The notes under the pieces are model-generated. The model ran no database searches, was not told the origin of the DNA, and worked only from the letters and a program-made list of their open reading frames with translations. Below, piece after piece: positions 4,301 through 44,954 of a DNA stretch of 44,954 bases. The first letter of the stretch is position 1. Each line of letters begins with the position of its first letter. Origin of the DNA: Hydrogenimonas thermophila (lineage in GTDB: Bacteria > Campylobacterota > Campylobacteria > Campylobacterales > Hydrogenimonadaceae); assembly GCF_900115615.1 (NCBI RefSeq), contig NZ_FOXB01000015.1, positions 1 to 44,954 of the forward strand. The letters run 5' to 3'. The position numbers and the translations under genes were made by a program.

Positions 4301-4310
4301 AATACCCCCT

Positions 4311-26088: not shown

Positions 26089-27825
26089 CTATATAATAAA
26101 ATCATGAAAGTCTAATATTTCAGGTTCAGGCTTACCAAAGTAATAGCCCTGAGCATAATCTACACCTAATAACAATATAGTATCTAAAACTTCTTTACTA
26201 TGTACATATTCTGCTATAGTTTTAATTCCACTTAAATTTGCATAATAAACAATTGTTTTGACAATATTTTGAGATTCAATATTTACATCAATGTCTTTAA
26301 TAAAACTACCATCTATTTTTACAAAATCAACATCTAATTTTAAAAGACTTGTAAAATTTGAATTTTCTGTTCCAAAATCATCAATTGCAAGTCTAAATCC
26401 TGCTTTTTTAAAATCTTTTAATTGTTGCACAATATCATAACTATAATTATTATTAATATTTTCTAAGATTTCTAAAATTACATAAGAACTTTTAACACTA
26501 TATAATTCACACATTTTATTCAAAAAATCTAATAAATACTCTTCTTTTAAATCATCTTCAGTAATATTTATAGAAAATTGTAAGTCTGTATTTGCCATAA
26601 TAGCAAAAGACTTCTCTATTATTTGCTTTGTTATTTCAGGCAAAATACCTGCCTTTTTAGCTGGTTCAATAAATAAATAAGGTGAATCTACACTCTCATT
26701 TTCAACTATACGTGCTAAACATTCATACTTTTCAATTTTATTGCTTTTAAGATTAATTATTGGTTGAAAAAAAGGTTGATATAAATTAGAATCTAATGCT
26801 ATTTTTGCCTTTTGAGTCCACTCTATAACTTTTTTACGTTTCAATTCCAAAATAAATTCAGGTTTAAATATCTCAATAGAATTTTTATGTGTCTCTCTTG
26901 CTTTTTTTATTGCCAAATGAGCATTTCCAAAAGGAGGTTTTTTCAAGGTTTTATCTATAGGAATAATTCCAATAGTAACAGTTATACAAAGGGATAAACC
27001 ATTAACAAGAAAATAGTTATTGTAAATTGAGTTATGAATATTTTCCGCAATACTTTTAGCTTCACTTAGTGTAAACTCCTTTATTAAAATAGCAAACTCA
27101 TCACCATTAATTCTATACAATTTATTAGAATCCAATAATTTACGTAAAAAAGAGGCAAACTCAATTAATAATAAATCACCAACTTCAAATCCATAATATA
27201 AATTTATTTGGTCAAAATTATCAATATTTAAAAAAATCATTACATCTGGTGAAAACTCTTTAAAATCTATATTTAACTGCTCTTTATTAGGTAATCTGGT
27301 TAAATGATCTGTTCTTAATTGATTTATTAATGATTCAGTTTGTTGCTTTATCTGATCGACTTGTTTTGCAACTAACTCTTCCAAATTTAAACGATACTTA
27401 GTATTTTCTTTCTCCATAATTACCAATTTTGCAATTTTATATAAAGTATTAATAATCTGGTCAGATTTAATTGGTTTTAAAATATATCCATCTATTCCCA
27501 TAAATACAGTTTCTAAAATTATTTGACTATCTCCATGCGCACTTTGAGCAACTATCTTTTGTTCAGGTTTAATCTTTCTAATCTCTTCTATCATTTTAAG
27601 CCCATCCATAATAGGCATTCTTAAATCAGTTAGAACTATATCAGGGTACTCTTTTTCAAAGATGTTTAGTCCTTCTTGTCCATTTTCAGCAATATAAACA
27701 TTTTTAAATAATGTTTTTAATAACCCATAAATACTTTCTCTTGCAGCTTCCTCATCATCAACAAATAAGATTGATAAATTTTCAGTATAACTTTTCAATT
27801 TCTTTGTTATATTTTTATCTAGCAT
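26089..27825 (-). CDS. Response regulator REC-GGDEF-EAL
   Basis: 578 residues. The receiver domain has phospho-acceptor D67 (VLTDLRMP) and switch Lys in LKPI. After a coiled linker comes a GGDEF domain with a changed signature NGDEF (240-244), then EAL with ECL (368-370). Other EAL residues are present (ILEILE, AIDDFGTENS, KIDGSF, AEYVH, QGYYFGKP). It likely hydrolyses c-di-GMP, with GGDEF inactive or GTP-sensing. The start overlaps the cheB stop by 11 bp, so it is a likely output of the same chemosensory operon. It is closely related in layout to the product of 40727-42391. Confidence 0.88.
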   Translation of the reverse strand: MLDKNITKKLKSYTENLSILFVDDEEAARESIYGLLKTLFKNVYIAENGQEGLNIFEKEYPDIVLTDLRMPIMDGLKMIEEIRKIKPEQKIVAQSAHGDSQIILETVFMGIDGYILKPIKSDQIINTLYKIAKLVIMEKENTKYRLNLEELVAKQVDQIKQQTESLINQLRTDHLTRLPNKEQLNIDFKEFSPDVMIFLNIDNFDQINLYYGFEVGDLLLIEFASFLRKLLDSNKLYRINGDEFAILIKEFTLSEAKSIAENIHNSIYNNYFLVNGLSLCITVTIGIIPIDKTLKKPPFGNAHLAIKKARETHKNSIEIFKPEFILELKRKKVIEWTQKAKIALDSNLYQPFFQPIINLKSNKIEKYECLARIVENESVDSPYLFIEPAKKAGILPEITKQIIEKSFAIMANTDLQFSINITEDDLKEEYLLDFLNKMCELYSVKSSYVILEILENINNNYSYDIVQQLKDFKKAGFRLAIDDFGTENSNFTSLLKLDVDFVKIDGSFIKDIDVNIESQNIVKTIVYYANLSGIKTIAEYVHSKEVLDTILLLGVDYAQGYYFGKPEPEILDFHDFII

Positions 27826-28876
27826 TTTTTATAACCTCAATAATAGCGTCAATATCAAGACTTTTAGTTACTCCCCCAAGCTTTACAGCTTCTTTTGGCA
27901 TACCATAAACTACACAACTTTTTTCATCTTCAGCATATGTTTTTGCTCCATTATCAAACATTTCTTTTAAACCATGGGCACCATCATCACCCATTCCAGT
28001 TAAAATTATTCCAATAGCATTTTCTCCTACCTCATTTGCTATTGATCGAAACATTACATCTACACTTGGTCGATGTCTGCAAACTCTTGGACCATCTTTA
28101 AGTATTATTAAGTAACCTTTAATATCACGTTTTATAAGTAAATGTTTGTCACCTGGAGCAATATATATATGAGAATGCTCAACTTTTTCACCATTTTCAG
28201 CTTCTTTAACTTCTACGTTACTAATTGAATTTAAACGTTTTGCTAAAGAAGCTGTAAATTTTGGTGGCATATGTTGAGTTATCACTATTGGAGCACATTT
28301 TGACGGCAAAGCTTTAACTATTTTTTCGAGTACTTGTACTCCACCAGTTGATGAACCTATAGCAATAATACTTTTAAAGTCTTTTGTAGATTTAGTAATA
28401 TTGTTAATTTTTTGTAAAGATGTCTTTGTTTTAATAATTGAATTATCAGATGTACTATTTCTTCTATTTAATTTTGCTTTTGATGCAGTTATTATTGTAG
28501 ATATTAATGATTCTTTTGTATTTTCTAGAAAACTTTTTATGCCTAATTTTGGTTTAGCTATAATTTCTACTGCTCCCGCTTGTAAAGCTTCAATAGCTTT
28601 ATAATTACCATCTTCAACCAATGAAGAACACATTATAACTGGAATAGGATGCTCTTTCATTATTTTTTTTAAAAAAGTTATCCCATCCATTCGAGGCATT
28701 TCAATATCTAAAATCATTACATCTGGGTAACCCACCAATTTAAATTTATTCATAGCAAAAATTGGATCTGATGCTACTCCTAAGACTTCAATATCAGTTT
28801 CATTTTCTACTAGTTTTATTAATGTTTGTCTCATAACAGCTGAATCATCAACAATAAAAAGTTTAATAGGAGGCAT
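27815..28876 (-). CDS. cheB: Chemotaxis response regulator methylesterase CheB
   Basis: 353 residues. Removes methyl groups from (and deamidates) chemoreceptors. The receiver has D57 in ILDIEMP; the linker is followed by the methylesterase with GSSTGG (S177), ITQHMPP (H203) and GMGDDGAHG (D297/298). Length and layout are normal. It lies 29 bp after the receiver-X gene and overlaps the REC-GGDEF-EAL gene. Its counterpart CheR is two genes upstream. Confidence 0.94.
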   Translation of the reverse strand: MPPIKLFIVDDSAVMRQTLIKLVENETDIEVLGVASDPIFAMNKFKLVGYPDVMILDIEMPRMDGITFLKKIMKEHPIPVIMCSSLVEDGNYKAIEALQAGAVEIIAKPKLGIKSFLENTKESLISTIITASKAKLNRRNSTSDNSIIKTKTSLQKINNITKSTKDFKSIIAIGSSTGGVQVLEKIVKALPSKCAPIVITQHMPPKFTASLAKRLNSISNVEVKEAENGEKVEHSHIYIAPGDKHLLIKRDIKGYLIILKDGPRVCRHRPSVDVMFRSIANEVGENAIGIILTGMGDDGAHGLKEMFDNGAKTYAEDEKSCVVYGMPKEAVKLGGVTKSLDIDAIIEVIKNAR

Positions 28877-28905
28877 CTATACTACTCTCTAAATTATATA
28901 AAACT

Positions 28906-29676
28906 TTATAGTTCATATGGAATTCTTATAGTTAATCCATTTTTTTTCCATCTTAACTCCATTGAATTATTTACATTTGAAAAAAAATGTTTAGAAGATT
29001 GAACAAATATATCATTCATTATACTTATATAAATTGCACTTTCTGACTCTTCTAACATTATTTCAAATGCTTCTGTTTTATCTTTTATAGACTGATATGT
29101 TTTAATTAAATTAATAATTACTTCTTTAGCTAAAATATTTACTCCATTTATAAACTTTTTTTTATTTGTAATATATTCACCCAATGTATATAAATCCTCT
29201 TCTTGATAAATAGTAAAAATGACATAAAAGTTCTTTATTTTGTCATCATTATATGGGTTTAACGTATCCCTTTTTATTATTGGTGTTTTAATCATATCGC
29301 TATTTACAAGTCTTATTATAAGAGATAGTCTTGCAACAATGTCTACCGTACTAAAAGGCTTGGAAATATAAAAATCAATACCACTTTCATATATTTTCCC
29401 AATAAGTTCATCACCACTTAACCCTGTAATTGCAGCAATAAAAATATTTTTTTTATTTACATCTTTTCTTAATTTCTTAGTTAACTCAAAACCATCCATA
29501 TTTGGCATCATCATGTCAGTTAACAAAATATCTACTTGTTGTTCTTGAATAATTTTATAAGCTATTTCCCCATCTTCTGCTTCAAATATATCTATATTTG
29601 AATCTATTTTATGCTTTATAATTTTAGTTAAAGTTTTTCTTACAGCATTATCATCTTCTGCTACAACAATGGTCAT
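28906..29676 (-). CDS. Response regulator with unrecognised C-terminal domain (short form)
   Basis: 256 residues. The receiver domain has D54 (LLTDMMMP) and KPF switch Lys. The C-terminal about 115 residues are not a known DNA-binding or enzyme domain to me; they include YVIFTIYQEEDLYTLGEYI and end NGLTIRIPYEL. They resemble the middle of the longer regulator at 36048-37262, so the two form a paralogous pair in one operon. It could be a phosphate sink or a protein-binding output. AGGAG lies before the ATG. Confidence 0.85.
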   Translation of the reverse strand: MTIVVAEDDNAVRKTLTKIIKHKIDSNIDIFEAEDGEIAYKIIQEQQVDILLTDMMMPNMDGFELTKKLRKDVNKKNIFIAAITGLSGDELIGKIYESGIDFYISKPFSTVDIVARLSLIIRLVNSDMIKTPIIKRDTLNPYNDDKIKNFYVIFTIYQEEDLYTLGEYITNKKKFINGVNILAKEVIINLIKTYQSIKDKTEAFEIMLEESESAIYISIMNDIFVQSSKHFFSNVNNSMELRWKKNGLTIRIPYEL

Positions 29677-29687
29677 ATTATCTCCTG

Positions 29688-30482
29688 CTATTTTTTATAA
29701 ATTGTAGGTGCAATTTGAACTAAATCATCAGTAATGTTAAATAAAGACTCAGAATGTCCAACAAAAAAATATCCACCAGGTTTAAGTCTCTCTAAAACAT
29801 TCTCAACAACTTTCTTTTTGGTAGGAATATCAAAATAAATCAAAACATTTCGTAAAAATATTAAATCAAAATCGCCAATATTTGGAGAAATAGAATTAAT
29901 TAGATTTATCTTTTGAAATAAAATATTTTGTTTTAACTTATTAACTATAGTAAACTGACCATTCATATTACCAATACCTTTTAAACAATATTTTTTTAAA
30001 TAATTTTCTGGTATTCTTTCAGCATATTTAATATTGTAAACACCTTTACGTGCCTGATTTAATACTTCATTATTTATATCTGTTGCTAAAATTTCATATT
30101 TCTTAATACTTGAAGGAAGAAACTCCTCAGCTAACATAGCAATTGTATATGCTTCTAATCCTATAGAAGCAGCAGCGCTCCAAATACGTATAGATGTTCT
30201 TACATTAGGAAATATATTTTTTTTTAAAAAATCAAAATGTCTGTTTTCTCTAAAAAAACTTGTTTCATTAGTTGTAATTCTATTAATCATTAATTGTAAT
30301 TCTTGTTCATCTGAAATTACTAATCTATAATAGTCGCTAAAATTTTCAAGCTTACACTCTTTAAGTCTTTTTTGCAATCTTGCTTCTAATAAAAAAATTT
30401 TTTCTTTTTTTATCTCTATTCCAGAATTGTCAAAGATTAATTTCTTAAATTTCTCAAACTCTACAAAGTTTATATGTATCAT
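29688..30482 (-). CDS. cheR: CheR-type receptor methyltransferase
   Basis: 264 residues. SAM-dependent methylation of chemoreceptor glutamates. Motifs: ITTNETSFFRE, SAM loop IRIWSAAASIGLEAYTIAML (diverged from ACSTGEEPYS), ILATDINNEVLNQA, FLRNVLIYFD and LKPGGYFFVGHSE. It lies 9 bp after cheV and 11 bp before the receiver-X gene, in the cheB-containing operon. It has better-kept motifs than the orphan copy at 9565-10416. Confidence 0.93.
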   Translation of the reverse strand: MIHINFVEFEKFKKLIFDNSGIEIKKEKIFLLEARLQKRLKECKLENFSDYYRLVISDEQELQLMINRITTNETSFFRENRHFDFLKKNIFPNVRTSIRIWSAAASIGLEAYTIAMLAEEFLPSSIKKYEILATDINNEVLNQARKGVYNIKYAERIPENYLKKYCLKGIGNMNGQFTIVNKLKQNILFQKINLINSISPNIGDFDLIFLRNVLIYFDIPTKKKVVENVLERLKPGGYFFVGHSESLFNITDDLVQIAPTIYKK

Positions 30483-30491
30483 TTTGCCACT

Positions 30492-31451
30492 TTAATCTCT
30501 TGCATATTTCAAAATGACTTTTTTAATTGCCTCTAAATCTAATTTTTCAAGAACTTCTTTAGCTCCAAGTTTTTCACACGATTGAATAATTGCCTTATTG
30601 GCCATATTCGTATTTACAACAATAGGAATATTTTGTAATTTTTCATCAGATTTACATTTTCTTATAAGCTCCATGCCCCCCATTACTGGCATTTCTATAT
30701 CTGTTAAAATTAATCCTATTTTATCAATATCACAATGTTGGAGTGCCTCAAAAAGTAATTTTCCATTTGCATATGCCTCATATTCTATTTGCATATTATT
30801 TAAGAGTTTTTCAATCATTTTCTGAATAAGATTTGAATCTTCAGCAATTAAAACTTTCTTTTCTATATTCTGTAAAACTAAACTTTTAGCTAAAATTTCA
30901 TCTTGATCTTCAAATATTTTAGGTAAGATATCTCGTATAAAAAGATCACTATTAAAAACTTTGCAAAGAACTTCTTTACCATTAATTTTTAAATCTGTAA
31001 TATAAGAAACTTTTTCATCTTTTATAGAATCATCAAACATTTGAGATGGTTCGATATTAATTACACCATATACGCTTTTTATTACCATTGCAACTTTTGC
31101 ACCGGCATAGTTGCAAACAATTGCAAGTTCATACTCATCTTTTGCTAACTTTTCCAATCCAAGCCAATTATCAAAATTGACAATATTCATCATTTCATCT
31201 CTAATTTTAGCAGTACCTTCTATTAGTCCATCTGGATCAGAAGTATCTACCTTAAATAAATCTTTATACACTACTAATTCTTCAACTTTAGCCACGTTTA
31301 TTGCATAGTACTCATCTTTTCCATTCTGAAAAATAACATATTGACTTGTAATATCAGCATTGCTGGTAACTAACCTAATTAACTCATCATCTACCTCATA
31401 TTTATTTAAAGTCTTATCATCATGTTTACTAATATTACTTCTATCTATCAT
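30492..31451 (-). CDS. cheV: CheV: CheW-like adaptor with receiver domain
   Basis: 319 residues. The CheW-like domain is about 35-180 (YVIFQNGKDEYYAINVAKVEEL, GLIEGTAKIRDEMMNIVNF). The receiver is about 199-319 with D251 (LILTDIEMP) and a changed C-terminal Lys region (EVLEKLD). CheV links receptors to CheA and may tune adaptation. The ATG overlaps the cheW stop as ATGA, so translation is coupled. CheV is frequent in Campylobacterota. Confidence 0.93.
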   Translation of the reverse strand: MIDRSNISKHDDKTLNKYEVDDELIRLVTSNADITSQYVIFQNGKDEYYAINVAKVEELVVYKDLFKVDTSDPDGLIEGTAKIRDEMMNIVNFDNWLGLEKLAKDEYELAIVCNYAGAKVAMVIKSVYGVINIEPSQMFDDSIKDEKVSYITDLKINGKEVLCKVFNSDLFIRDILPKIFEDQDEILAKSLVLQNIEKKVLIAEDSNLIQKMIEKLLNNMQIEYEAYANGKLLFEALQHCDIDKIGLILTDIEMPVMGGMELIRKCKSDEKLQNIPIVVNTNMANKAIIQSCEKLGAKEVLEKLDLEAIKKVILKYARD

Positions 31452-31927
31452 AATATTTTTCCTGTATCAATTTTGGAAAGTACTTCTATATCTAATATAG
31501 CATTATGGTCTAAAATTGGTACAAATTTATTTTCAATCTTAGCAATATTTTTTATAAAAATTTTTGGTATTTTAGTTCCAAAAACTGGTACATCTTCCAA
31601 ATCTTTTGACTCTAATTCATAAACCTCATTAACCAAATCAACAACTATTCCCATCTCTTGTGGTCTATTTACATTATTTTTTATAATTATAATTGAAGAC
31701 CATTTATTAATTTTAGAGTTTTCTCTAATTCCAATCCTTATTGAAAGATCAATAACAGGAATAACGTTACCTCTTATATTAGTTACACCCAATACTGAAG
31801 AAGTCATCAATGGAACTTTTGTTACTCTTGTGTAACTAATTATCTCTTTTATCTCTTCTGCATCTATTGCAAAAACATCCTTACCAATATAAAAAATAAG
31901 GTATTGATTTTTATCACTATTTTCCAT
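31448..31927 (-). CDS. cheW: CheW coupling protein
   Basis: About 159 residues. A single CheW domain (YLIFYIGKDVFAIDAEEIKEII, SSVLGVTNIRGNVIPVIDL, GIVVDLVNEVYEL) couples receptors to the CheA kinase. The start is put at ATG 31927, after AAGGGC. An in-frame extension to 31978 lies in the tail of the duplicated MCP segment and is not part of the protein. The stop overlaps the cheV start. Confidence 0.93.
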   Translation of the reverse strand: MENSDKNQYLIFYIGKDVFAIDAEEIKEIISYTRVTKVPLMTSSVLGVTNIRGNVIPVIDLSIRIGIRENSKINKWSSIIIIKNNVNRPQEMGIVVDLVNEVYELESKDLEDVPVFGTKIPKIFIKNIAKIENKFVPILDHNAILDIEVLSKIDTGKIL

Positions 31928-31937
31928 TATATAGCCC

Positions 31938-34055
31938 TTAAAAGCTAACAAAGTTTTGACTATTTTCTCTATTGTCAAAAGTTTTCTTTACAGAATCCTC
32001 TTTCTCTTCACTATTATCTGTAACTAAACTCTCTTTTTTTTCATCATCATCTTTTTTATCACTCTTAAAAAAGCTTACCATTTCTTTAAGTTTCTCTACT
32101 TGTGAATTTGTCTCTTCACTTGAACTTGCTAACTCTTCACTTGCTGCTGCATTCTGTTGGGCTGTCTGATCCAACTCTGTTATCGCTGTTGCTATCTGGC
32201 TTATTCCTAACTCCTGTTCTGAACTCGCACTTGATATCTCCTCGATCAAGTCTGATATCTTCTTTATATTTGGTACTATCTCATTAATCAACTCACCAGC
32301 TCTTTGACTAACCTCTACACTATCTGATGTTATCTGACTTATCTCCTGTGCAGCTGTCTGACTTCTCTCTGCCAGTTTTCTTACTTCACTTGCTACTACT
32401 GCAAAACCCTTGCCATGCTCTCCTGCACGTGCCGCCTCTATTGCAGCATTCAGTGCCAACAAATTAGTCTGATATGCTATATCCTCTATTATGCTTATCC
32501 TTGATGCCACATTCTTCATTGCCTCTGCTGTCTCATTTACAGACTTCCCACCATCTTCTGCCATTGTTACTGTATTTAGTGTTATCTCATTTGTCTTCTT
32601 TGCATTATCTGCATTCTGACTTATCGATCCACTCATCTCTTCTATTGCAGCACTCATCTCTTCCAAGCTACTCGCCTGTTCTGTCGCACCCGCTGATAGA
32701 CTATGTGCTGCTGATTTAACCTCACTACTAGCCACCGCTATTCGTTCTGTTGAACTCTTCACATTAGATATTAACTTCTCCATCGTCTCTAAAATATTAT
32801 TCACAACCTCTGGTATTACTTGAAACTCTCTATCTATCCCCTTTACTTCTACTCTAGATCTTATATCTCCATCTTTAATTCTTCTATTTACTTCCTCAAT
32901 CTTTTTAACTAAATTAGTTATCTTATTGATTATATTATGCTTAATAACAAAAGACATAATAAATAGTAGTATAACAGCAACAATAATAGAAATTATTATA
33001 ATATTTATAATCGCTTCTTTAACAGTTTTTAAACTCTGTTCTTGCATAACTTGAACTTGATGTTCAATATCATCAATATATGTACCTGTACCAATTACCC
33101 AATTCCAAGGTTTAAACAATCTTACATTAGACATTTTACGAGCAGTTTTTTCTGTTGCAGGATTATAAAAAGAGTATTCAAAAATAGCCTCATCTTTTGA
33201 AGAGCTTTTCAAAGCATTCACTCCCAATGCTACAAACGGTACTTTTGGATTATCTTTAAAGTTTTTACCAGTTAACTCTTTCTTTATTGGGTGCATTACC
33301 ATATTGTAATCCATATCATTTATCCAGAAGTACCCATTTTTACCATATCTGATCTCTGAGATAGCTTTTAAAGCCTCTTTTTGCATCTTCTGAGTTATAT
33401 CATCAATATATGCCCCTGTACCGATGATCCATCCAAACGGTTTAAATACCCGCACAATTGAAGATTTATAGACATATTTTTTTGATTTTGGCGAATAGAA
33501 ACTATAGGATATATACCCCACATTTTTCCCACTCTTCTTCAATTCATCAACGCCAAGTGCTACAAATGGCACTTTAGGATTATTTTTAAAATATTTACCG
33601 GTCAACTTTTTTTTGATTGGATGCATAACCATTTTATAGTTAAAATCATTTATCCAAAAATATCCAGCTTCACCATATCTTGTAGCATTAACAGTAGCTA
33701 TTATTAATTTTTTCAACTCTTTCTTAGATAGCTTATCCTTATACATTTCATATTGTTTCTCAATAATACTAAATAAAAAATCAGATTGTTCAGTAATATA
33801 CTCTTTAACTTCATTTTCTAATTTATCTTTACTTGTTCTCTCATAATATGATTTTACAATATTCATAGCTATACTTGTATAGTTACTAAGCTCTTCTTTT
33901 CTAGCAGTATATGTATCTTCTCTATATATTTTGATATTTTCTTTTGACATATTATTTATTGAAATTAAACTTATAATTATTAAAACCAAAGATGTAAAAA
34001 AAACTGCGGCTAATAATATTAACTGTAACTTTAATTTTATAGACATTTTTTTCAT
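31938..34055 (-). CDS. Chemoreceptor (MCP) with tandem Cache sensor domains
   Basis: About 705 residues. There is a membrane segment near 9-32, then two very similar Cache units in tandem: both have [30 protein letters not shown] and IGTG.YIDDI. A second membrane segment at about 355-380 is followed by HAMP and the signalling hairpin ([22 protein letters not shown]). It ends NSQNFVSF, without an obvious CheR-tether pentapeptide. The start is ATG 34055 after AGGAGGAA. The last 983 bp are almost identical to the next MCP gene upstream, while the sensors differ, so only the input has been exchanged. Confidence 0.92.
31939..32921 (-). repeat. 983-bp near-identical repeat, copy 1 (MCP 3' end)
   Basis: Covers HAMP, signalling domain and stop codon of the tandem-Cache MCP. 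It aligns without gaps to 34067-35049 (offset 2128) with about 20 mismatches by eye, nearly all silent. Confidence 0.9.
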
Positions 34056-34065
34056 AATCTTCCTC

Positions 34066-36027
34066 CTAAAAGCTAACAAAGTTTTGACTATTTTCTCTAT
34101 TGTCAAAAGTTTTCTTTACAGAATCCTCTTTCTCTTCACTATTATCTGTAACTAAACTCTCTTTTTTTTCATCATCATCTTTTTTATCACTCTTAAAAAA
34201 GCTTACCATTTCTTTAAGTTTCTCTACTTGTGAATTTGTCTCTTCACTTGAACTTGCTAACTCTTCACTTGCTGCTGCATTCTGTTGGGCTGTCTGATCC
34301 AACTCTGTTATCGCTGTTGCTATCTGGCTTATTCCTAACTCTTGTTCTGAACTAGCACTTGATATCTCTTCAATTAAATCTGATATCTTCTTTATATTTG
34401 GTACTATCTCATTAATCAACTCACCGGCTCTTTGACTAACCTCTACACTATCTGATGTTATCTGACTTATCTCCTGTGCAGCTGTTTGACTTCTCTCTGC
34501 CAGTTTTCTTACTTCACTTGCTACTACTGCAAAACCCTTGCCATGCTCTCCTGCACGTGCCGCCTCTATTGCAGCATTTAGTGCCAATAAATTTGTCTGA
34601 TAGGCTATATCCTCTATTATGCTTATCCTTGATGCCACATTCCTCATTGCCTCTGCTGTCTCATTTACAGACTTTCCACCATCTTCAGCCATTGTTACTG
34701 TATTTAGTGTTATCTCATTTGTCCTCTTTGCATTATCTGCATTCTGACTTATCGATCCACTCATCTCTTCTATTGCAGCACTCATCTCTTCCAAGCTACT
34801 CGCCTGTTCTGTCGCACCCGCTGATAGACTATGTGCTGCTGATTTAACCTCACTACTAGCCACCGCTATTCGTTCTGTTGAACTCTTCACATTAGATATT
34901 AACTTCTCCATCGTCTCTAAAATATTATTCACAACCTCTGGTATTACTTGAAACTCTCTATCTATCCCCTTTACTTCTACTCTAGATCTTATATCTCCAT
35001 CTTTAATTCTTCTATTTACTTCTTCTATCTTTTTAACTAAATTAGTTATATTAGAGATAAATTTATGAAAAATTAATGTCATCAATATAGTTATAACAAT
35101 ACTGAGAACTGCAAATATTCCAATTTGCTTAAACAGAGATTCCTTACTGTGGTCTGCTACACTATTAATATAATTAAGTTTTTTTCCAATAAATGCATAG
35201 CCAACTTTTTCTCCATTAAAATCTTCTAATGGCAAAGAGATATAAAAGTAATCTTTTGTAATATTATATTTGTTACTTTGAGATATAAATTTTTCGTTTT
35301 TTAATTGAGTATAAAAAGTTGAATCATATAAGTTATCATCTACAGCTATAACAAATTTATCCATTAATTCTTTATTATTTTCTAACTTTGAGGCAATATT
35401 TAAGAACTTTTTATCAACAGTAATTATGACTGCTGTTTTTATTTTTTTTAAATCTTTAATAATAGAATTTAATTCTAGTATAAACTCAATACTTCCATAA
35501 TATTTATTATCATTTATAATTGGAGCAACTCCTCTGATTGATAACCCAACTTTTCCTACCTCAATGCAAGAAATTGCCTTTTTATGATTTTTAACAGCTA
35601 CAATAGAGTTACGAAATGAACTTAAATCATCACCACTCTTTTTACTCCAAGATCTTAAAAATGAATGTATATCTTTTGTATGTATATGAATCTTTACATT
35701 TTTATACTTTGTTGATTTTTTATATCTATTAATCAAACTTTTTAAAGTTTTATATGCCTCTACTTTATTATTATTTTTTAAGGCATTAATAATTTTACTA
35801 TTTTCTGACAGTGTTATTGCATTTGTTATTGCAATCTTTTTTTCTTCATTTATCTTTTGTTTAAATATATTTATTAAATCATTTGAAACTTGATTATATA
35901 ACTGATTTTCAATATTTTCTATTGATGAAAATAAACTAATTAATACAACTATAAAACTAATTGTTATTAAGAATACTAGTTGAATAAGAATACGTTTTGA
36001 GATAGACATTTTGTTATAATTTAACAT
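34066..36027 (-). CDS. Chemoreceptor (MCP) with double-Cache-like sensor
   Basis: 653 residues. A membrane segment at about 14-36 is followed by a periplasmic region about 40-310 with a dCache-like pattern ([61 protein letters not shown]). A second membrane segment lies about 315-335, then HAMP and a signalling hairpin that differs from its neighbour by only two Lys/Arg swaps. The sensor is unrelated to the tandem Cache of that neighbour. ATG follows AAGGATT. It is second in the operon, 20 bp after the receiver-X gene. Confidence 0.92.
34067..35049 (-). repeat. 983-bp near-identical repeat, copy 2 (MCP 3' end)
   Basis: Partner of 31939-32921. Similarity stops sharply at the HAMP/membrane boundary and just after the stop codon, as expected from a recent duplication or ongoing gene conversion. 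Confidence 0.9.
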
Positions 36028-36047: not shown

Positions 36048-37262
36048 CTAATTTTGAATAATTTTCTTACACTGCTCTAAAAGTTCTATATCCATAAAAT
36101 GAATATCATTTACATCTTTATTTTTAAATATAGATTTTAACCATTTTTCAAACAAAATAATAAAATCATTTATATTTCTTATTATGTTTTTTTGTTTCTC
36201 TCTTTCCATTGCATCAAAATCTTTTAAATAACTATATACATCTTTTACTGCTTCTGCAAGGTGACCAAATTCTGCAAGATGATTTAGTAAATGAAAGCAA
36301 TTTTCAAAAAACTCAGAACTTTCATAAATCAGATCTGCACTCACTTCATTTTTATCATTCAAAAGATACAGGTAAGCTTCTTTTGCTTCATTTACATCAT
36401 CAATATAGTAATCAATATCTTCAGATACAATTGTCATAAAATCAATTGCTTTAACTTGTTCATAAATCGTTTTGATTGTCTCTTTATTATCTTCTTCTCT
36501 AATTAAATTTAAACGAATCGTAAAACAATCATCTTTAAATTTAATATCTTTATATTCTGATGATTTAATGATTTTTTCTGCTGCTTCTGTACAAAATTTA
36601 TCTTTCACAGTCAAATAAGCAAAATTCTTTGAATACTCTAATAGAATTTTAAACTTTGGAGATTTATTTTCGCGAGATAGAAATCTATATATTTTTACAA
36701 ATTCAACAATAATATCTTTTAAAGAGTCTGATGCAGATACAAGATCTTCTTGAGAAAAATGTTTCCATAATAAAAATAGGTCTGCTTCCTTCTGCATATT
36801 AAAAATTGTAATACAATTCTGTAAATAGTAGTCATTAAAAAGGTTTTCAACATCTTTTTGAGGTAGGATTGTTTGATATTTGTCTTTTTTAATAAACTGA
36901 ATTATAAACTTTAATCTAGCAACAATATCGTCTATATGAAAAGGTTTTGCTATGTAAAAATCTGCACCACTAGCATAAATCTTTTCTATCTGTTCTTCTC
37001 CTCCTAATCCCGTAATAGCTGCTATAAATATATTTTTTGTTTTATTAGAATTTTTTACTCTACTAATTAGTTCAAATCCATTCATATTTGGCATCATTAT
37101 ATCAGTTAATAAAATATCAACACGTTCATGTTGTATTAAATCTAAAGCTTTTTTCCCATCTTCTGCTTCTATAATTTTAATATCTGCCCCTATTTTGTTT
37201 TCAATGATACTTTTTAAAGTATCCCTAAGTTTTATTTCATCATCTACAATCATTATATTCAT
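36048..37262 (-). CDS. Response regulator with unrecognised C-terminal domain (long form)
   Basis: 404 residues. The receiver has D54 (LLTDIMMP) and KPF. The middle region about 130-255 resembles the C-terminal part of the shorter regulator at 28906-29676 ([14 protein letters not shown] matches AIYISIMNDIFVQS by position; both end in a TIR(L/I) strand). A further helical region about 265-404 is unique to this protein, with a run of acidic and aromatic residues. No HTH or enzyme motif is recognised. It is the first gene of the minus-strand chemosensory operon, with SD GAGGAG. Confidence 0.85.
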
Positions 37263-37326
37263 TTTCTCTCCTCAAATAACTTTATTAAATTTTGCTTCAA
37301 AGATTATCACTTATTATCTATCAAGT

Positions 37327-37332: not shown

Positions 37333-37388
37333 TTCTCTGAAAGTACTTTAAAACTTACTATCAAATACTTTATTTAAAATTTAGCCAT

Positions 37389-37425: not shown

Positions 37426-37542
37426 TACTAAACATACGTTTATTAATGCAATGACCCTCTAAAGAATTTTTTACAACATTAATAAATACAAGCTCTACTC
37501 AGACTGAGAATAACTATAAAATTTTTCATTAATAGTTACAAA

Positions 37543-37552
37543 TTTAACTCAA
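37543..37552 (+). promoter_or_regulatory. Extra half-site of the 13-bp repeat
   Basis: TTTAACTCAA repeats the first 10 bases of the left arm at 37389, closer to the HTH gene. It could be a second, weaker binding site. Confidence 0.4.
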
Positions 37553-37698
37553 ATAGAAAAATCATTCATCAATACACAACATTTAACGGATTCTCGTAAT
37601 AATATAGTTTTCTACATAAAATATAAATTAAATGTGAAATATTCTTAAAAAAGTAGCTTGTCAAAATATAAAATATACTAAAAAGAGAAAGATATAAT

Positions 37699-38154
37699 AT
37701 GGAAGTTTTTGAAAAAATAAATCATTATTTAAGAGAGAAAAAAATTTCTAAAAAAGAGTTTGCAGCTAGATTACAAGCATTAGAACCAAAATTGAAAAGC
37801 ACAGGTGAAATACCATCTGAAAAAACGATTTATGCATACTTAAACGGAAGAATCAGTATAAAAGCAGAACTAATACCATACATTGCACAAGTATTGGATA
37901 TACCAGAACAATTACTTTTTGCTGACTGTAAAATAAGTAGAAAAAAATTTTTGTTACATATTTTAAAAAGCATAACACCAGAAGAGAAAAATTTAATTAA
38001 ATCTAAACTTTGCAATAATCAAATAAATAAAAAAGAGATAAATAAATTTGACAAAATAGAAGAACTACTCCAATATGCCCCTGATATTTTTATAAAAAAA
38101 CTTGAAAATATACTCAAAGAATATAAAGCATTAACATTAAAGTTTAAAAGCTAA
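37699..38154 (+). CDS. Helix-turn-helix (XRE-like) regulator
   Basis: 151 residues. The N-terminal HTH about 5-70 (LREKKISKKEFAARLQAL, PSEKTIYAYLNGRISIK, IPYIAQVLDIPEQLLF) is of Cro/C1 type with an enlarged loop before the recognition helix. The C-terminal about 80 residues are helical and basic, of unknown role. It stands alone between the two chemosensory units and may control one or both through the nearby inverted repeat; this is inferred from position. The ribosome site is weak. The 260-bp gap after it, up to the STAS gene, shows only A+T-rich DNA with a possible promoter and no terminator hairpin I can defend. Confidence 0.8.
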   Translation: MEVFEKINHYLREKKISKKEFAARLQALEPKLKSTGEIPSEKTIYAYLNGRISIKAELIPYIAQVLDIPEQLLFADCKISRKKFLLHILKSITPEEKNLIKSKLCNNQINKKEINKFDKIEELLQYAPDIFIKKLENILKEYKALTLKFKS

Positions 38155-38414
38155 TGTTTTCTTGTTTTTTGCAAATTTTACTTCTAAAAATTTCTACCTT
38201 CCCGTCTATACACTGCAAATAAATTAATTGTTCACACTTAATGCAACTAAAAACAATATCAACAATTAAAAGTAATTAATTCTTTATATCTATTTAATGT
38301 AGAAAATTATATTATATGTAGAAGATATGAAAGATAAATTACTATTAAATCAAAATAATTTTCAAATCATTCTATGAATTATAGAACTACTGTAAAAATG
38401 GAGGAACTAAACAA

Positions 38415-38714
38415 ATGAAAGTTTTTACAGATGAAGGTCAATGTTTTATTGATTTAGAACATTCATTAACAATTAAAGATGTCAGTACTTTACATATTAA
38501 ACTGAGTGCTACAAATATAAAAGAAATAAATGAATTTTTTATTCATGGCATGGATTTAAAAGAGTTTGATACAGCTGGTCTTCAAATTTTGATAGCTATA
38601 AAAAAGTATGCAGATAAAAATAATAAAGAATTTCAAATGTCAGTTGGAAAAAAAGAAAGAGAATTGATCAAATTTTATGAAATGGATGAGTATTTTAAAG
38701 GGGCAATTGTATGA
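38415..38714 (+). CDS. STAS-domain protein
   Basis: 99 residues, a single STAS domain. The usual phosphorylatable Ser position (DSxGL) is Thr here: FDTAGLQ with T53. In anti-sigma-antagonist relatives, a kinase modifies this residue and switches partner binding. GGAGG lies before the ATG, and the stop overlaps cheA as ATGA. That coupling suggests it acts with CheA, perhaps as an assembly or localisation partner. Confidence 0.85.
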   Translation: MKVFTDEGQCFIDLEHSLTIKDVSTLHIKLSATNIKEINEFFIHGMDLKEFDTAGLQILIAIKKYADKNNKEFQMSVGKKERELIKFYEMDEYFKGAIV

Positions 38715-40714
38715 ACGCTGAATTTATAAGTATGTTAGATGAATATAAAGCAGAGAATGATGAACTTCTTCAAAATATGGAAGATGCGCTTATGCAGATT
38801 CAAGAAGAAGGCATGAATGATGAAAATATAAATGCTGTTTTTAGAGCTGCTCATACAATTAAAGGCAGTTCGGGAATGTTTGGTATTGATTATATCGTCA
38901 AATTCACACATGTTGCTGAAAATTTATTAGACAAAATTCGCAATAATAAAATTCAAATTAATGATGAAATTATTGATACACTGTTATCTTGTAAAGATCA
39001 CATACAAACTTTAGTTGATTTTGTAGTCGATAATCCAGATAATGAACCGTCTGATGATATTACACAAAAAAGTAACAATCTCATAGAGATACTTACCAAA
39101 TACCTCGATAATAAAAATGAAAAAGAAAAAAATACAGCACAAAATGAAAATATTACCAATAATAATACAGTAGATAAATCTAAAGATAAAACTATTTATA
39201 AAATTAAAATAGATTTTAAAGAAGAGACTTTCAATCATGGATTCGATCTATATTCATTTATAAATTATTTAAATAATTTAGGAGAAATAGCTTCTTTTAA
39301 AACAATAACTACAAAAGTTCCAACAATAGATTCCATTAACCCAACAAAATGTTATTTAAGTTTTGAAATTGAATTTGCAAGTACAGAATCAGAATCAAAA
39401 ATAAAAGATGTATTTGAACTTGCAAAAGATGATTGTCAAATAGAAATTATAAACCCAAACAAAGTTACAGAAAAAAAAGATAAAAAAACAGATGAAATAC
39501 AAAAAAAGATTTCTAGCAAAAAAATAGCTGTTAATAAAAGTTCCAATTCTATAAGAGTAGATGCTGAAAAAGTTGATAGTTTAATAAACCTAATCGGTGA
39601 GATGGTAATATCTAATGCAGTTGTAATGCAAAAAGCAAAAAATAATGGCAATTCCGATCTCATTGAATCAATTTCTAATGTCTCAAGAATGCTTGAAGAG
39701 TTACGCGAAAATGCAATGCAAATAAGAATGATACCAATAGGCGATACATTTAAAAAGTATAAACGAATAGTACATGATTTAGCAAACAAATTAGGCAAAC
39801 AGATAGAACTTAGTATGAGTGGGTATGAAACTGAACTTGACAAAACAGTTATAGAAAAAATTTCCGATCCACTTGTTCATCTAATCCGAAATTCTGTAGA
39901 CCATGGCATAGAAACACCAGATGAAAGAGTAAAGAACGGTAAAAATCCCAAAGGGACAATTGAGCTAAACGCATATCATGATGCAGGTTCCATTGTCATA
40001 GAAATAAAAGATGATGGAAAAGGACTAGATGCAGAAGTTATTTTACAAAAAGGTATAGAAAAGGGGTTAGTAGAGAACCCAGAGTTAATGACTCAAAAAG
40101 AGATATTTGAACTAATTTTACAACCTGGTTTTTCAACTGCTAAAAAAGTAAGCGACATCTCAGGTCGAGGTGTTGGGATGGATGTTGTAAAAAGAAATAT
40201 TACAGATCTTAGAGGAGAGATTGAAATATTTAGTGAAAAAGGACATGGTACAAGAATTTTAATACGACTCCCTTTGACATTGGCAATCATAGATGGATTT
40301 TTAACCAAGGTAAGTAATACCTATTTTGTAATACCTTTAGACATGGTAATAGAGTGCATAGAACTTACAAAAGCAATTAAAGAAGAGATGCGAGGAAACA
40401 ACTACATAAATTTAAGAGGAAAAGTTTTACCTGTATTGGATCTTAATCAATATTTTAAAATTGATAAAAAGAATCCAACTTCAAAAGATAATGTTGTAGT
40501 AGTCAATTATGCTGGAAAATATATGGGGATATTAGTACAGGAACTTCTAGGAGAACTTCAAACAGTTATAAAACCTCTGGGGCAAGTATTTAAAAACTTA
40601 AATAGTTTAAGCGGATCAACAATACTAGGAAATGGTGAAGTAGCTCTAATATTAGATATTCCATCTCTTTTGAAAGATATGGAAAAAAGACCACTTAATA
40701 ACTGTGCCGCATAA
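38711..40714 (+). CDS. cheA: Chemotaxis histidine kinase CheA
   Basis: 667 residues. Phosphorylates the receivers of the pathway. The N-terminal Hpt domain has AHTIKGSSG (H48). A long variable linker (about 110-275) replaces a clear P2. Dimerisation is about 280-345, then the ATPase with N box LVHLIRNSVDHG, DDGKG and GRGVGMD, then the CheW-like C-terminus about 520-660. No receiver is fused, unlike many epsilon CheA proteins. It is the only CheA seen, so it probably serves all receivers and MCPs in this window. Confidence 0.95.
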   Translation: MNAEFISMLDEYKAENDELLQNMEDALMQIQEEGMNDENINAVFRAAHTIKGSSGMFGIDYIVKFTHVAENLLDKIRNNKIQINDEIIDTLLSCKDHIQTLVDFVVDNPDNEPSDDITQKSNNLIEILTKYLDNKNEKEKNTAQNENITNNNTVDKSKDKTIYKIKIDFKEETFNHGFDLYSFINYLNNLGEIASFKTITTKVPTIDSINPTKCYLSFEIEFASTESESKIKDVFELAKDDCQIEIINPNKVTEKKDKKTDEIQKKISSKKIAVNKSSNSIRVDAEKVDSLINLIGEMVISNAVVMQKAKNNGNSDLIESISNVSRMLEELRENAMQIRMIPIGDTFKKYKRIVHDLANKLGKQIELSMSGYETELDKTVIEKISDPLVHLIRNSVDHGIETPDERVKNGKNPKGTIELNAYHDAGSIVIEIKDDGKGLDAEVILQKGIEKGLVENPELMTQKEIFELILQPGFSTAKKVSDISGRGVGMDVVKRNITDLRGEIEIFSEKGHGTRILIRLPLTLAIIDGFLTKVSNTYFVIPLDMVIECIELTKAIKEEMRGNNYINLRGKVLPVLDLNQYFKIDKKNPTSKDNVVVVNYAGKYMGILVQELLGELQTVIKPLGQVFKNLNSLSGSTILGNGEVALILDIPSLLKDMEKRPLNNCAA

Positions 40715-40726
40715 AAAGGAGTAGTC

Positions 40727-42391
40727 ATGAATATGCAGGAACTTAAAAAAGAACTTAAAGATTTAACACTTCTATATGTAGAAGATGATGCAAATACAAG
40801 AATAAGAATTGAAAAACTTTTTAGTCATATTTTTAAAAGTGTAACAACAGCAGAAAATGGAGTAGATGCACTTAAACTTTATGAAGAAAAAGAGTATGAC
40901 TTAGTTATTACAGATATTACAATGCCAAAAATGAATGGCATAGAATTGATAGAAAATATAAGAAACACTAATAAAAATCAAACAATTATAATTTTAACTG
41001 CACATAACACAAATGAAAATTTATTAGATGCAATAGACTTACAAGTTGATGGTTTCTTATTAAAACCACTTGATAAAGATAAAATGTCTGAATTACTATA
41101 CAAAATAGGTAAACATATTAAAAATGAAAAAGAAAATATAAGCTATAAGAAAAATTTAGAGTCATTAGTACAAGAACAACAAAACAAGATTTGTGAATTG
41201 ATAGCTAAAGACCATCTTACCGGTGAATATAATTATTCAAAGCTCAAATCATTAATAATACATAATAAAAGTTCTACTGTTTGTCTTTTAGTAATAAATC
41301 ATCTTTCTGAACTTCTTGATTTTTTTGGAACAGAAATATATGAACCTATTATAAAAAAATGTTCTGACTATCTTAAATCAATAATTATTGAAAAAATGAA
41401 ATATTTTCATTTACGAAGTAATGAATTTGCAATTTTTATTGATAATACGAATAATTCAGAAGATTTAATGAAAAAGTTTTGTAAAAAAATAGAAGATTTT
41501 TATATTAACATTAATGGTGCTAAAATAAAAATAGTCTTTTCTACTGCTGTATTAAAAGGAGACAGCACTACTCTTTTAAAATCAATAGATGATACTCTTT
41601 TAAAAATATCACAATCTGGTAATATTCACAATATTACTAATCTAAACAATGACATAATAAAACAAAGATGGGAATCATTATGCATTGCAACAAATGTTGC
41701 GGATAAGTCATTGTCAATACCATATTATCAGCCTATTTTTTCACAAAATGAAGAACACTTAATGTTTGAAGTATTATGTAGAATAAATAATAATTTTTTT
41801 AAAAATGAAAACAAAAGAAAATGTTTCTTTGAATCCTGTAAAAAAGCTCAAATTTTTAGCAAAATTACCTTAAATGTTTTAAAAAGTTCAATAAAACAGA
41901 TTGAAAAAGTAAATGCTCTATTTTTTATAAATTTGTGTAAAAATGAAATATTAGATAGTGAGTTCATAAATACAATAATTAATTCACCTATAAAAGTAAA
42001 AAACAATATTGTTATAGAAGTAAATCCATCATTATTAAATGAAAACAAAATAATTAATATAATATTAAAACTTAAAGATATTGGCATTAGGATATGTTTT
42101 GATAATGTAGGCTTAGAATCATTTCAAATTAAAAGAATATTGGATATCAATCTCATTCCTAGCTTTTTAAAACTCGATAAAAGTATTATTTCTTCTATTC
42201 CATTTAATGAAAGATATTTAAATACAGTTCAAGCATATACTATCTTTGCAAAAAATATGAATATAAAAACTATTGCAGTAGGTATTGAAAATCAAAAGTG
42301 CTATGAAGTAGCTAAAAAAATAGGCTTCGATTACTATCAAGGTTATTACCTTGCTGAACCTCAAGAGACAATTAAAATAGGAGAAATATAA
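40727..42391 (+). CDS. Response regulator REC with degenerate GGDEF and EAL
   Basis: 554 residues. The receiver looks working (D63 in VITDITMP, LKPL). The GGDEF position reads RSNEF (230-234), so cyclase activity is lost. The EAL domain keeps EVL (348-350), QGYYLAEP and KLDKS, but the metal-binding DDFG is DNVG (459-462) and other positions have drifted (INLCKNEI). Phosphodiesterase activity is doubtful; c-di-GMP binding or a purely protein-binding role is possible. It sits directly after cheA (AAGGAG ribosome site) and one base step before the FIST kinase. Confidence 0.87.
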   Translation: MNMQELKKELKDLTLLYVEDDANTRIRIEKLFSHIFKSVTTAENGVDALKLYEEKEYDLVITDITMPKMNGIELIENIRNTNKNQTIIILTAHNTNENLLDAIDLQVDGFLLKPLDKDKMSELLYKIGKHIKNEKENISYKKNLESLVQEQQNKICELIAKDHLTGEYNYSKLKSLIIHNKSSTVCLLVINHLSELLDFFGTEIYEPIIKKCSDYLKSIIIEKMKYFHLRSNEFAIFIDNTNNSEDLMKKFCKKIEDFYININGAKIKIVFSTAVLKGDSTTLLKSIDDTLLKISQSGNIHNITNLNNDIIKQRWESLCIATNVADKSLSIPYYQPIFSQNEEHLMFEVLCRINNNFFKNENKRKCFFESCKKAQIFSKITLNVLKSSIKQIEKVNALFFINLCKNEILDSEFINTIINSPIKVKNNIVIEVNPSLLNENKIINIILKLKDIGIRICFDNVGLESFQIKRILDINLIPSFLKLDKSIISSIPFNERYLNTVQAYTIFAKNMNIKTIAVGIENQKCYEVAKKIGFDYYQGYYLAEPQETIKIGEI

Positions 42392-44398
42392 ATGAGAACT
42401 TATAATTTAGTATTTTCTACCTTTAGTGATCTTGAAAAAAGATTAAAAAAGATTAAAAATTACAGAAGTAAAAGTATATTAATACAAATCTTTTCTGGAA
42501 AAATAGATAAAAATTTTATAAAAGATTTAAGTTATTTTATAAAAGAGAGACTTAACAATTCTACTATCATAGGTGCAACAACTGATGGTGAAATTATAAA
42601 TAAAAAAATAAAAGAAAACAGTGTTATCATCTCTATAACGTTATTTAAAGATAGTTCAATATCATCTGCATCAATTGAATATAATGGAAATTTTGTTGAA
42701 AATGGTATTGAATTAGTTAAAAAAATTGTAAACGAGACAACAAAAGTAGTTATACTTTTTTCTACTGGATTAAATGTTAATGCAGATGAACTTTTAAAGG
42801 GTGTTAATACTATAACTAAAAAATATAAAAATATTGTAATTGCTGGTGCATTAGCTGGAGATAACTCAAATTTTAAAGAAACTTTTGTCATGCATAATAA
42901 TAAAATTCTTTCAAATGGTGTTGTAGCTGTTACAATCAATAATAAAGACCTATTTGCTACTCAATGTTACAATTTTTCTTGGAAGCAATTTGGACGCCAT
43001 TTTCAAATAACAAAAGCAGAAAATAATCGGATTTATGAAATAGAAGGAGTAAAAGCTTATGATTTTTATAAAAAATATCTTGGAGAAGATGTAGCTAAAA
43101 AGCTTCCTCAGGTAGGAATACAATTTCCACTAATAATAAAAAGAGGAACTAAAAATGTAGCAAGAGCTTGTTTGGATGTATTTGATGATGGATCTATTGC
43201 ATTTGGTGGGAATATATATACAGGAGAAAAGGCTATATTTGCAATAGGTGATATAGAATTGATTCTTGATGATTTAAAAAAAGATAAACTTAAAACAAGT
43301 TATGACATAGAATCTATTTTTATATATTCCTGTATGGCTAGAAAAAAATTATTTGGTTCGAGTATTGCAATTGAAATAACACCATTAACATATATCGCTC
43401 CTGTAGCAGGCTTTTTCTCTTATGGAGAGTTTTATATTGATGAAAACCATACACCAATAATGATGCAAGAAACTATGACTGTTTTAGGAATGTCCGAAGA
43501 AAAAAAGCCTATTAAAAAAAATACACAAAGAGTAAAAGTACATAAAAAAAATATTGATACACGTAGCGATTTAATACGTGCAATGGTTCATTTAAATAAT
43601 ATGGTGGCAAAAGACTGGGAAACATTGAATAAAAACCTTAAAGAAGAGGTAACAAAAAAAACTTTACAAAATAGACAAAAAGACTCTTTACTTATGCAAC
43701 AGTCAAAATTAGCACAAATGGGCGAAATGATTGGAATGATCGCACACCAATGGAGACAACCTCTTAATGCAATAAGTGCAGAATCTATCAATCTATCTCT
43801 TCTTTCAGAATTAGATGAATTAAAAGATGAGGAAGTTCAAAAAAGTTGTACTTTCATACAACAACAGTGCCAAAAAATGTCTGAAACCATCAATACATTT
43901 ATGGAGTTCATAAAACAAGAGAAACACAAAAAGCCTTTTATTGTTCAAAATGTAATAGAAGAAACAATTGCAATTGTCAAACCTCAATTTGCAAGTAGAA
44001 ATATTACTTTAAACATTAGTGATTTATGCAGTGAGAAAATTGAAATAACAGGTTACCGAAATCTCATAGAACAAGTATTGTTAACACTACTATCTAATGC
44101 CAGAGATGCTTTTGAAGAACAACAAATAGAAAATTCTCAAATAAATATTATTACTTCAAGAAATAGTGATATTGTAGAAATATGTGTAGAAGATAATGCA
44201 GGCGGAGTAAAAGAGGAACACATAGAAAAACTGTTTAATCCATATTTTACAACAAAAGAACCTGGTAAAGGTACAGGTCTTGGACTATATATGGCTAAGC
44301 GCATAATTACTGAACAATTTAACGGTCACATCTATTATAACTCAATTAAAAATGGTAGTTGTTTTATCATAAATATAAATATAAATGACAATAAATAA
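42392..44398 (+). CDS. FIST-domain sensor histidine kinase
   Basis: 668 residues, no membrane segment. FIST-N (about 26-200) and FIST-C (about 215-365; [31 protein letters not shown]) form the input, thought to bind small ligands such as amino acids. After a coiled linker, the HisKA has H452 ([14 protein letters not shown]). The ATPase has [31 protein letters not shown]. The start follows the previous stop without a gap (TAAATG). A cytosolic kinase in the chemosensory operon could feed the same receivers. Confidence 0.92.
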
Positions 44399-44430
44399 AA
44401 GTTTAAATTAGAAAATAAGGTGTAATAAAA

Positions 44431-44954
44431 GTGAAAACAAAAGTTTATTTTAGTTCAAATCCATCTTTATTATTAGCTTTACGAGAAATAAATGAATACA
44501 TAAACAAAGATTTTACAAAAATAGATTTTTTAATTTTTAGTATTCATCCTGAATATAGTGGCAATTTTAATGAATGTATTCAAAAAGTGTTTGGTAGAAC
44601 AGATTATGCTGCATTTCATGCTTTAAATGCCTTTAGCAATAGGAAAATAACAGAAAAAGCTGTTACTGTTACAGCTTTTAAATTTGAAAAAAATACAAAA
44701 ATAAAGAAGTTTTGGATAGAAGATATAAGAAATTATGAAAAAGATAACTCCATACAAAAAACAGCTAAATACTTAAATGAAAATTCAAACGATTTTCATA
44801 TTATGTTAGCTGGATATACAGAAGATAGATTTGGAAGCTTCTTAGAAAAACTGTCCAATAATATAAATTATAACCCTGTCAATAACATAATTGGCGGTAT
44901 ATCTTCAGGTATGGTTATAGATAACGAGTTAAGAAGTTGGCAATTTACAAATGA
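44431..44954 (+). CDS. FIST-domain protein, partial (runs off the window)
   Basis: At least 174 codons, open to the window end. The start is GTG 44431, preceded by AAGGTG at 8-nt spacing, 32 bp after the FIST kinase. The protein begins VKTKVYFSSNPSLLLALREI and contains NNIIGGISSGM, matching FIST-N. Whether a GGDEF, kinase or other output follows cannot be seen. A second FIST sensor in tandem suggests linked ligands or a cascade. Confidence 0.75.
   Translation, partial: MKTKVYFSSNPSLLLALREINEYINKDFTKIDFLIFSIHPEYSGNFNECIQKVFGRTDYAAFHALNAFSNRKITEKAVTVTAFKFEKNTKIKKFWIEDIRNYEKDNSIQKTAKYLNENSNDFHIMLAGYTEDRFGSFLEKLSNNINYNPVNNIIGGISSGMVIDNELRSWQFTN

Follow-up and report, generated by a model that had tools for sequence, protein, structure and literature searches.

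A CheY-less F8 chemosensory cluster in Hydrogenimonas thermophila that is likely wired to cyclic di-GMP

Where does a chemosensory kinase send its phosphate when its gene cluster encodes no stand-alone CheY? This question is raised by positions 26089-44954 of contig NZ_FOXB01000015.1 of Hydrogenimonas thermophila (RefSeq assembly GCF_900115615.1), the window analyzed here being the entire contig of 44,954 nucleotides. An initial annotation had described CheA, CheW, CheV, CheR, CheB, and two methyl-accepting chemotaxis proteins (MCPs) in two divergent operons, with receiver (REC) domains fused either to GGDEF-EAL (REC-GGDEF-EAL nos. 1 and 2) or to an unrecognized domain, here called X (REC-X short and REC-X long), and had proposed an output through cyclic di-GMP (c-di-GMP) rather than flagella. 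Open reading frame (ORF) calls and Pfam scans recovered every gene it named as an intact ORF at its coordinates, apart from a second FIST-like gene, which is truncated where the contig, and with it the window, ends. The inventory of the two operons, whose genes are spaced by −11 to +32 bp, therefore stands, as do the receiver fusions and the statement that 26089-44954 contains neither a single-domain CheY nor flagellar genes. The cluster is an F8-class system that appears to have lost its CheY and is likely wired to c-di-GMP.

Assignment to the F8 class

The gene set had first been considered unrecognizable, a view overturned by its receptors, its CheA, and the STAS protein encoded beside CheA. 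Both MCPs lack exactly 7 residues in each arm relative to Tsr, which has 36 heptads (36H), and these symmetric deletions make them 34H receptors. In a scripted heptad check of all neighborhood MCPs, relatives of the cluster were likewise 34H, and the neighboring class was 36H. Receptors of the 34H type are tied to the F8 class (PMC9321776, PMC7184735, PMC11253619). In a quick CheA tree of 100 rows, all 53 CheAs linked to 34H receptors fell in one 71-row clade that includes the window CheA (Shimodaira-Hasegawa-like approximate likelihood ratio test, SH-aLRT, 98), and those linked to 36H receptors all lay outside it. The window CheA carried the label "other" in this tree, since its 34H MCPs are encoded on the opposite strand. 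The window CheA belongs to a Campylobacterota subclade (100/96) together with Sulfuricurvum and others, and alignment shows its H48 and ATP-binding boxes to be conserved. Of 50 F8-clade loci, 49, among them the window, have a STAS gene ahead of CheA, as counted by six-frame domain search (the source of all F8-clade locus counts given here). The STAS protein of the window has no Pfam match of its own; it gives a weak MlaB-type STAS match and aligns with same-position neighbors in relatives that do score as STAS. A single STAS protein beside CheA is known as CheS in Sinorhizobium meliloti and Agrobacterium, where it binds CheA and affects CheY binding (PMC12654446), and position and domain suggest a CheS function here as well. 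By its 34H receptors, CheA clade, and STAS neighbor, the cluster is an F8-class chemosensory system.

Three other assignments were rejected. A wholly new chemosensory class is ruled out by the 34H receptors and the CheA clade. Membership of the Wsp/ACF class is ruled out by the 34H receptors, a CheA without receiver, and REC-GGDEF-EAL in place of REC-GGDEF proteins. The F3 class does not fit a CheA without receiver, and the cheVAW set of this genome sits on another contig (C5).

Close orthologs of the window CheA (∼40-53% full-length identity) were found in ∼14 of the 397 phylum genomes, all belonging to other families within the order, and REC-X long has no counterpart in the 17 other genomes of the genus. 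This patchy distribution makes transfer or repeated loss likely.

Loss of CheY and a separate flagellar system

A stand-alone CheY is encoded just upstream of STAS-CheA in 48 of the 50 F8-clade loci, the exceptions being the window and a Xanthomonas locus (L076). A profile built from 13 Campylobacterota F8 CheYs returned 149-185 bits for F8-clade CheYs left out of its building. Among the ∼49 receiver matches across the H. thermophila genome (2.44 Mb in 92 contigs, estimated 100% complete), no F8-type CheY was found, the best scores being 93.7 bits for a REC-HDGYP-like protein and 93.3 bits for the F3 CheY. These values fall short of 149 bits, and the F8 CheY retained by related arrays thus appears to have been lost from this one. 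A REC-EAL-type gene is present at both loci without CheY (2/2), as compared to 6/48 of the other loci with REC-EAL or REC-GGDEF (hypergeometric p ∼0.02, for a small sample and not corrected for phylogeny); with two CheY-less loci, this association is suggestive only. The other such locus, an F8 cluster of Xanthomonas euroxanthea (L076, 9670-18009), has a REC-EAL gene with intact catalytic residues and is a possible independent parallel.

FliG and flagellins are encoded elsewhere in the genome. Contig C5 carries the gene order CheV-CheA(with receiver)-CheW, and an F3-type CheY with the W58-type FliM-binding residue lies directly upstream of prmA; cheVAW, a CheA with receiver, a receiver-less CheB, and cheY-prmA are features of the F3 class (PMC9321776). 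Further F3-type genes, for CheR, CheB, and an MCP, lie within the window itself (Table 1) and had been overlooked in its chemotaxis inventory. A third CheA set on contig C1 comprises CheV, a 36H MCP, CheA, CheW, and a receiver protein; in this set (L006, 7836-14449), one protein has a C-terminal receiver preceded by an N-terminal part that looks repeat-like. Because F3 genes are present elsewhere in the genome, flagellar chemotaxis is most likely run by this separate F3 system, and the 26089-44954 cluster is an additional one. The initial annotation had allowed that a CheY or flagellar cluster just beyond the window would weaken its proposal; both exist in the genome, although not next door.

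One alternative, judged unlikely, is that the F8 array is an accessory flagellar input, with its CheA phosphorylating the F3 CheY, or with exchange between the F8 and F3 arrays, while the fused receivers serve mainly as phosphate sinks. An F3 CheY with the FliM-binding tryptophan is indeed available, but the F8 cluster has six receivers of its own in tight operons. Such crosstalk is favored by findings in Pseudomonas syringae, where swimming responds to components of the F8 system and its kinase interacts with a noncognate regulator (PMC11253619), whereas non-F3 classes with one or two receptors have been argued to be unlikely navigators (PMC9321776).

Fused receivers as candidate outputs

With the stand-alone CheY apparently lost, we infer that CheA phosphate reaches receivers fused to outputs. 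The favored reading, held with moderate confidence, is of an F8 array without CheY, in a cell whose F3 system runs the flagella separately, and in which the outputs of CheA are fused receivers with c-di-GMP and STAS links. Phosphate would pass from CheA to REC-GGDEF-EAL no. 1 and to the two REC-X proteins. The phosphorylation pocket is complete in each of the cluster's six receivers, none of which carries the FliM-contacting W58. In REC-GGDEF-EAL no. 1, the EAL residues checked for catalysis (E, N, E, DD, K, E, Q) are all conserved, the GGDEF site is altered to NGDEF, and the receiver pocket is intact, so that the protein is predicted to be an active c-di-GMP phosphodiesterase. Given an intact phosphodiesterase, the likeliest effect of CheA activity would be to lower c-di-GMP, opposite in sign to WspR, the diguanylate cyclase output of Wsp. 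REC-GGDEF-EAL no. 2 has RSNEF at its GGDEF site and D→N, E→V, and E→P changes in EAL; with sites this degenerate, a working enzyme is unlikely, and the possibility that both proteins are active enzymes was rejected on account of no. 2. Genes for REC-EAL or REC-GGDEF occur in 8/50 F8-clade loci. A similar pair, one REC-...-EAL intact and the adjacent one degenerate, is found in the F8 locus of a beta-proteobacterial Sterolibacterium metagenome-assembled genome (L077, 15954-19925).

The c-di-GMP parts are accompanied by candidate gas sensors. The FIST domain of the FIST-histidine kinase fusion (FIST-HK) matches the NCBIfam NosP model at 1.7e-16 and 60 bits, well short of its equivalog cut-off of 450. 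NosP often shares an operon with its kinase and with a regulator whose c-di-GMP domain is degenerate in Burkholderia pseudomallei (PMC12570481). FIST-HK and the adjacent degenerate REC-GGDEF-EAL no. 2 would form a module reminiscent of NosP/NosK/NosR, and by this operon likeness no. 2 may be the partner of the FIST kinase rather than of CheA. A FIST gene and a histidine kinase also adjoin another Campylobacterota F8 cluster (L047). In ODP-GGDEF, the HQDPD motif and later H, D, and H positions align with the solved ODP structures 6QRQ and 6QNM, and the cyclase A-site signature is GGEEI; this enzyme could add an O2- or nitric oxide (NO)-type input to c-di-GMP. Together, the NosP-like FIST kinase and ODP-GGDEF suggest NO or O2 as input. 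ODP occurs in two others of the 50 F8-clade loci, both beta-proteobacterial, where it lies inside the cluster next to a small MCP (L083, 14400-20130, which also has REC-GGDEF-EAL, and L095, 7400-8804), echoing the ODP-MCP pair of Treponema (PMC7666581). The FIST kinase and ODP-GGDEF of the initial annotation are confirmed by Pfam; the second FIST-like gene, cut by the contig end, yields a partial protein without Pfam match.

These modules also allow a reading in which CheA does not serve the c-di-GMP parts: FIST-HK and REC-GGDEF-EAL no. 2 would be a NosP/NosK/NosR-type two-component system, ODP-GGDEF an autonomous oxygen-responsive cyclase, both merely colocated, and the F8 output would be the REC-X proteins. 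The NosP-model score, the gap of 0 between REC-GGDEF-EAL no. 2 and FIST-HK, and the frequent single operon of NosP, NosK, and a REC protein with c-di-GMP domain (PMC12570481) make this a genuine contender, if still the less probable one, since the REC-GGDEF-EAL no. 1 gene directly follows cheB in the other operon, which is che-only, and REC-EAL is likewise placed in several F8 loci without FIST. The original proposal of c-di-GMP rather than flagella thus survives in part: separate F3 steering, no F8-like CheY genome-wide, the intact EAL of no. 1, and comparable genes in other F8 loci favor it, whereas the second EAL protein may serve the FIST kinase.

REC-X short and REC-X long are 40% identical over their shared part. 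X found no match in Pfam, NCBIfam, or PDB sequences, nor did REC-X short find relatives in viral contigs. The REC-X long family is present in 57/397 genomes of the phylum, often beside a PAS kinase; where the context of the family was read, it lay in 36H (F7-like) che clusters. An AlphaFold model of X alone, made from the two window sequences, reached a predicted local distance difference test (pLDDT) of 78.4 and a predicted template modeling score (pTM) of 0.76. In a Foldseek search with this model, the top 14 PDB matches were the anti-sigma kinases RsbW, SpoIIAB, and UsfX, each bound to a STAS or sigma partner (E 1e-3 for the best, template modeling score, TM, ∼0.5, for a two-sequence model). 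RsbW and SpoIIAB are the classic partners of STAS proteins. By hhalign, X had a probability of 0.1% against HATPase_c_2 (an imperfect test, as 1/10 HATPase_c_2 rows, L184, was in the wrong frame) and no match among 15 other profiles. As the profile comparison lends no sequence support and ATP-binding boxes are not recognizable in X, a noncatalytic RsbW-like binding domain is offered as a lead and not as a result. By hhalign, the helical tail of REC-X long, with the motif DIH[YF][LM]D, shows homology to segments of two further proteins that recur in the F8 clusters of Campylobacterota (E 2e-15 and 1.5e-7). These uncharacterized helical-domain proteins (L049, 7456-8352 and 5339-6418, with equivalents in L047-L053) share with the tail a domain that has no Pfam family.

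In the favored reading, X could bind the STAS protein if the modeled fold holds, as a partner switch or a phosphate sink. In another reading, the main output would be gene expression and c-di-GMP would be secondary: a STAS/REC-X partner switch would act on a sigma factor or an anti-sigma factor, in the manner of CrsR-CrsA or HsbR-HsbA. The RsbW/SpoIIAB/UsfX fold matches and the STAS protein of the same cluster are consistent with this scheme, and HsbR-HsbA ties such a switch to c-di-GMP (PMC6482189). It is nonetheless improbable, as X lacks recognizable ATP-binding boxes and a sequence match to HATPase_c_2, STAS at this position is of the CheS type, CheS being a CheA binder in S. meliloti (PMC12654446), and the REC-X family is mainly in 36H (F7-like) clusters. 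An extended version of the favored reading, in which CheY of the F8 array has been replaced, would have one CheA drive both the phosphodiesterase and a receiver-controlled, noncatalytic RsbW-like partner of STAS/CheS, so that chemosensory, partner-switch, and NO/O2 inputs merge into one c-di-GMP decision; this is a speculative and rather doubtful elaboration.

Several points weigh against CheA acting through its own fused receivers on c-di-GMP and STAS. Genes downstream of the second FIST gene are hidden from view in place, as the contig stops within it, although the genome-wide search took in the other contigs. The EAL domain of no. 2 is degenerate, which weakens half of the c-di-GMP argument. 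The RsbW-like fold comes from the two-sequence model at the Foldseek values given above, without sequence-profile support. Finally, the F3 CheY or another receiver could act in trans as acceptor.

Related systems and genomic setting

Known F8 systems (P. syringae cluster II and those of Campylobacterota) share with the window the 34H MCPs, the CheW/CheR/CheB set, the CheA clade, and STAS beside CheA, to which relatives add CheY. The window differs in its missing stand-alone CheY, two REC-X proteins, REC-GGDEF-EAL pair, and attached ODP-GGDEF and FIST-HK; its CheV is a further difference, shared with Campylobacterota F8 relatives. The Wsp system (ACF class) of Pseudomonas resembles the window in having an array that probably signals to a receiver joined to a c-di-GMP enzyme. 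That class has a REC-GGDEF output with active cyclase, ACF-type receptors, and a hybrid CheA, as compared to a predicted phosphodiesterase as the intact enzyme, 34H receptors, and a CheA without receiver in the window. The CheA-CheS pair of S. meliloti and Agrobacterium has a single-domain STAS protein encoded beside CheA, in clusters that keep CheY1/CheY2 and steer flagella, unlike the CheY-less window cluster. In NosP-NosK-NosR, too, a FIST sensor adjoins a histidine kinase and a REC protein that carries a (degenerate) c-di-GMP domain; in the window, FIST and kinase are fused and the NosP score is far under the curated cut-off. HsbR-HsbA/CrsR-CrsA combine a receiver with an anti-sigma-kinase-like fold, a STAS protein, and a c-di-GMP link, the fold likeness to X being by structure only; the window has no PP2C domain and X has no recognizable kinase boxes. 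In Treponema, the ODP oxygen sensor is also tied to a chemosensory system, paired there with a cytoplasmic MCP but fused to GGDEF in the window.

The left operon (Table 1), on the minus strand, begins with REC-X long (37262) and ends with ODP-GGDEF (24430), which starts 24 bp after the REC-GGDEF-EAL no. 1 gene. On the plus strand, the right operon begins with the STAS gene (38415) and continues with CheA, REC-GGDEF-EAL no. 2, FIST-HK, and the second FIST-like gene.

Table 1. Chemosensory and associated genes of the 44,954-nucleotide window
Feature	Coordinates	Strand	Evidence or remark
F3-type CheR, CheB without receiver, MCP	9565..13251	-	Pfam; F3 marker per PMC9321776
ODP-GGDEF: ODP (O2/NO-type diiron metallo-beta-lactamase fold) and GGDEF diguanylate cyclase	24430..26064	-	Pfam ODP 5e-61, GGDEF 3e-42
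REC-GGDEF-EAL no. 1	26089..27825	-	Pfam; predicted active c-di-GMP phosphodiesterase
CheB (REC and methylesterase)	27815..28876	-	Pfam 8e-65
REC-X short, 256 aa: receiver and ∼130 aa X domain	28906..29676	-	Pfam scan; predicted RsbW-like fold of X
CheR	29688..30482	-	Pfam 6e-55
CheV (CheW-REC)	30492..31451	-	Pfam
CheW	31448..31933	-	Pfam 1e-31
MCP 2: dCache_2 sensor, 34H signaling domain	31938..34061	-	Pfam and heptad alignment
MCP 1: dCache_3 sensor, 34H signaling domain	34066..36027	-	Pfam and heptad alignment
REC-X long, 404 aa: receiver, X domain, and ∼150 aa helical domain	36048..37262	-	Pfam scan, alignment
Small HTH-like protein, between the divergent operons	37699..38154	+	47% identical relative adjoins another F8 cluster (L053)
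CheS-type STAS protein, motif DTAG	38415..38714	+	Position; alignment with STAS neighbors
CheA, F8 class, without C-terminal receiver	38711..40714	+	Pfam, alignment, tree
REC-GGDEF-EAL no. 2	40727..42391	+	Pfam; both enzymatic domains degenerate
FIST-HK: NosP-like FIST fused to histidine kinase	42392..44398	+	Pfam FIST 2e-35, HATPase
Second FIST-like gene, ended by contig end	44431..44954	+	Identified in the initial annotation

The signaling halves of MCP 1 and MCP 2 are near-identical (25 differences in the last 1000 nt) and their sensor domain types differ, a pattern that points to recent duplication or gene conversion; MCP 2 ends in NFVSF, a tether-like pentapeptide. On the same strand as ODP-GGDEF and 44 bp downstream of it, a Na+/H+ antiporter is fused to a partial, degenerate GGDEF-like domain (22691-24385), an unusual fusion. 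Another c-di-GMP unit is possible at 1198-9257, where two GGDEF-EAL proteins are encoded close to a gene resembling those of TonB-dependent receptors and to one for a small protein of secreted type. At the contig start (54-1179), a transposase-like gene is broken across two overlapping frames.

F8 is a known class; the cluster described here is unusual in lacking CheY, with c-di-GMP as its likely output and a partner switch as a possible one, and it probably governs lifestyle and not swimming. F8 systems are found widely, and little is known about what they control. Loci in nature that have dropped CheY and retain fused receivers alone allow this output to be tested directly, with no CheY in the background. 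If X does bind STAS/CheS, this would give the STAS proteins of che clusters a partner-switch role that has so far been suspected but not shown.

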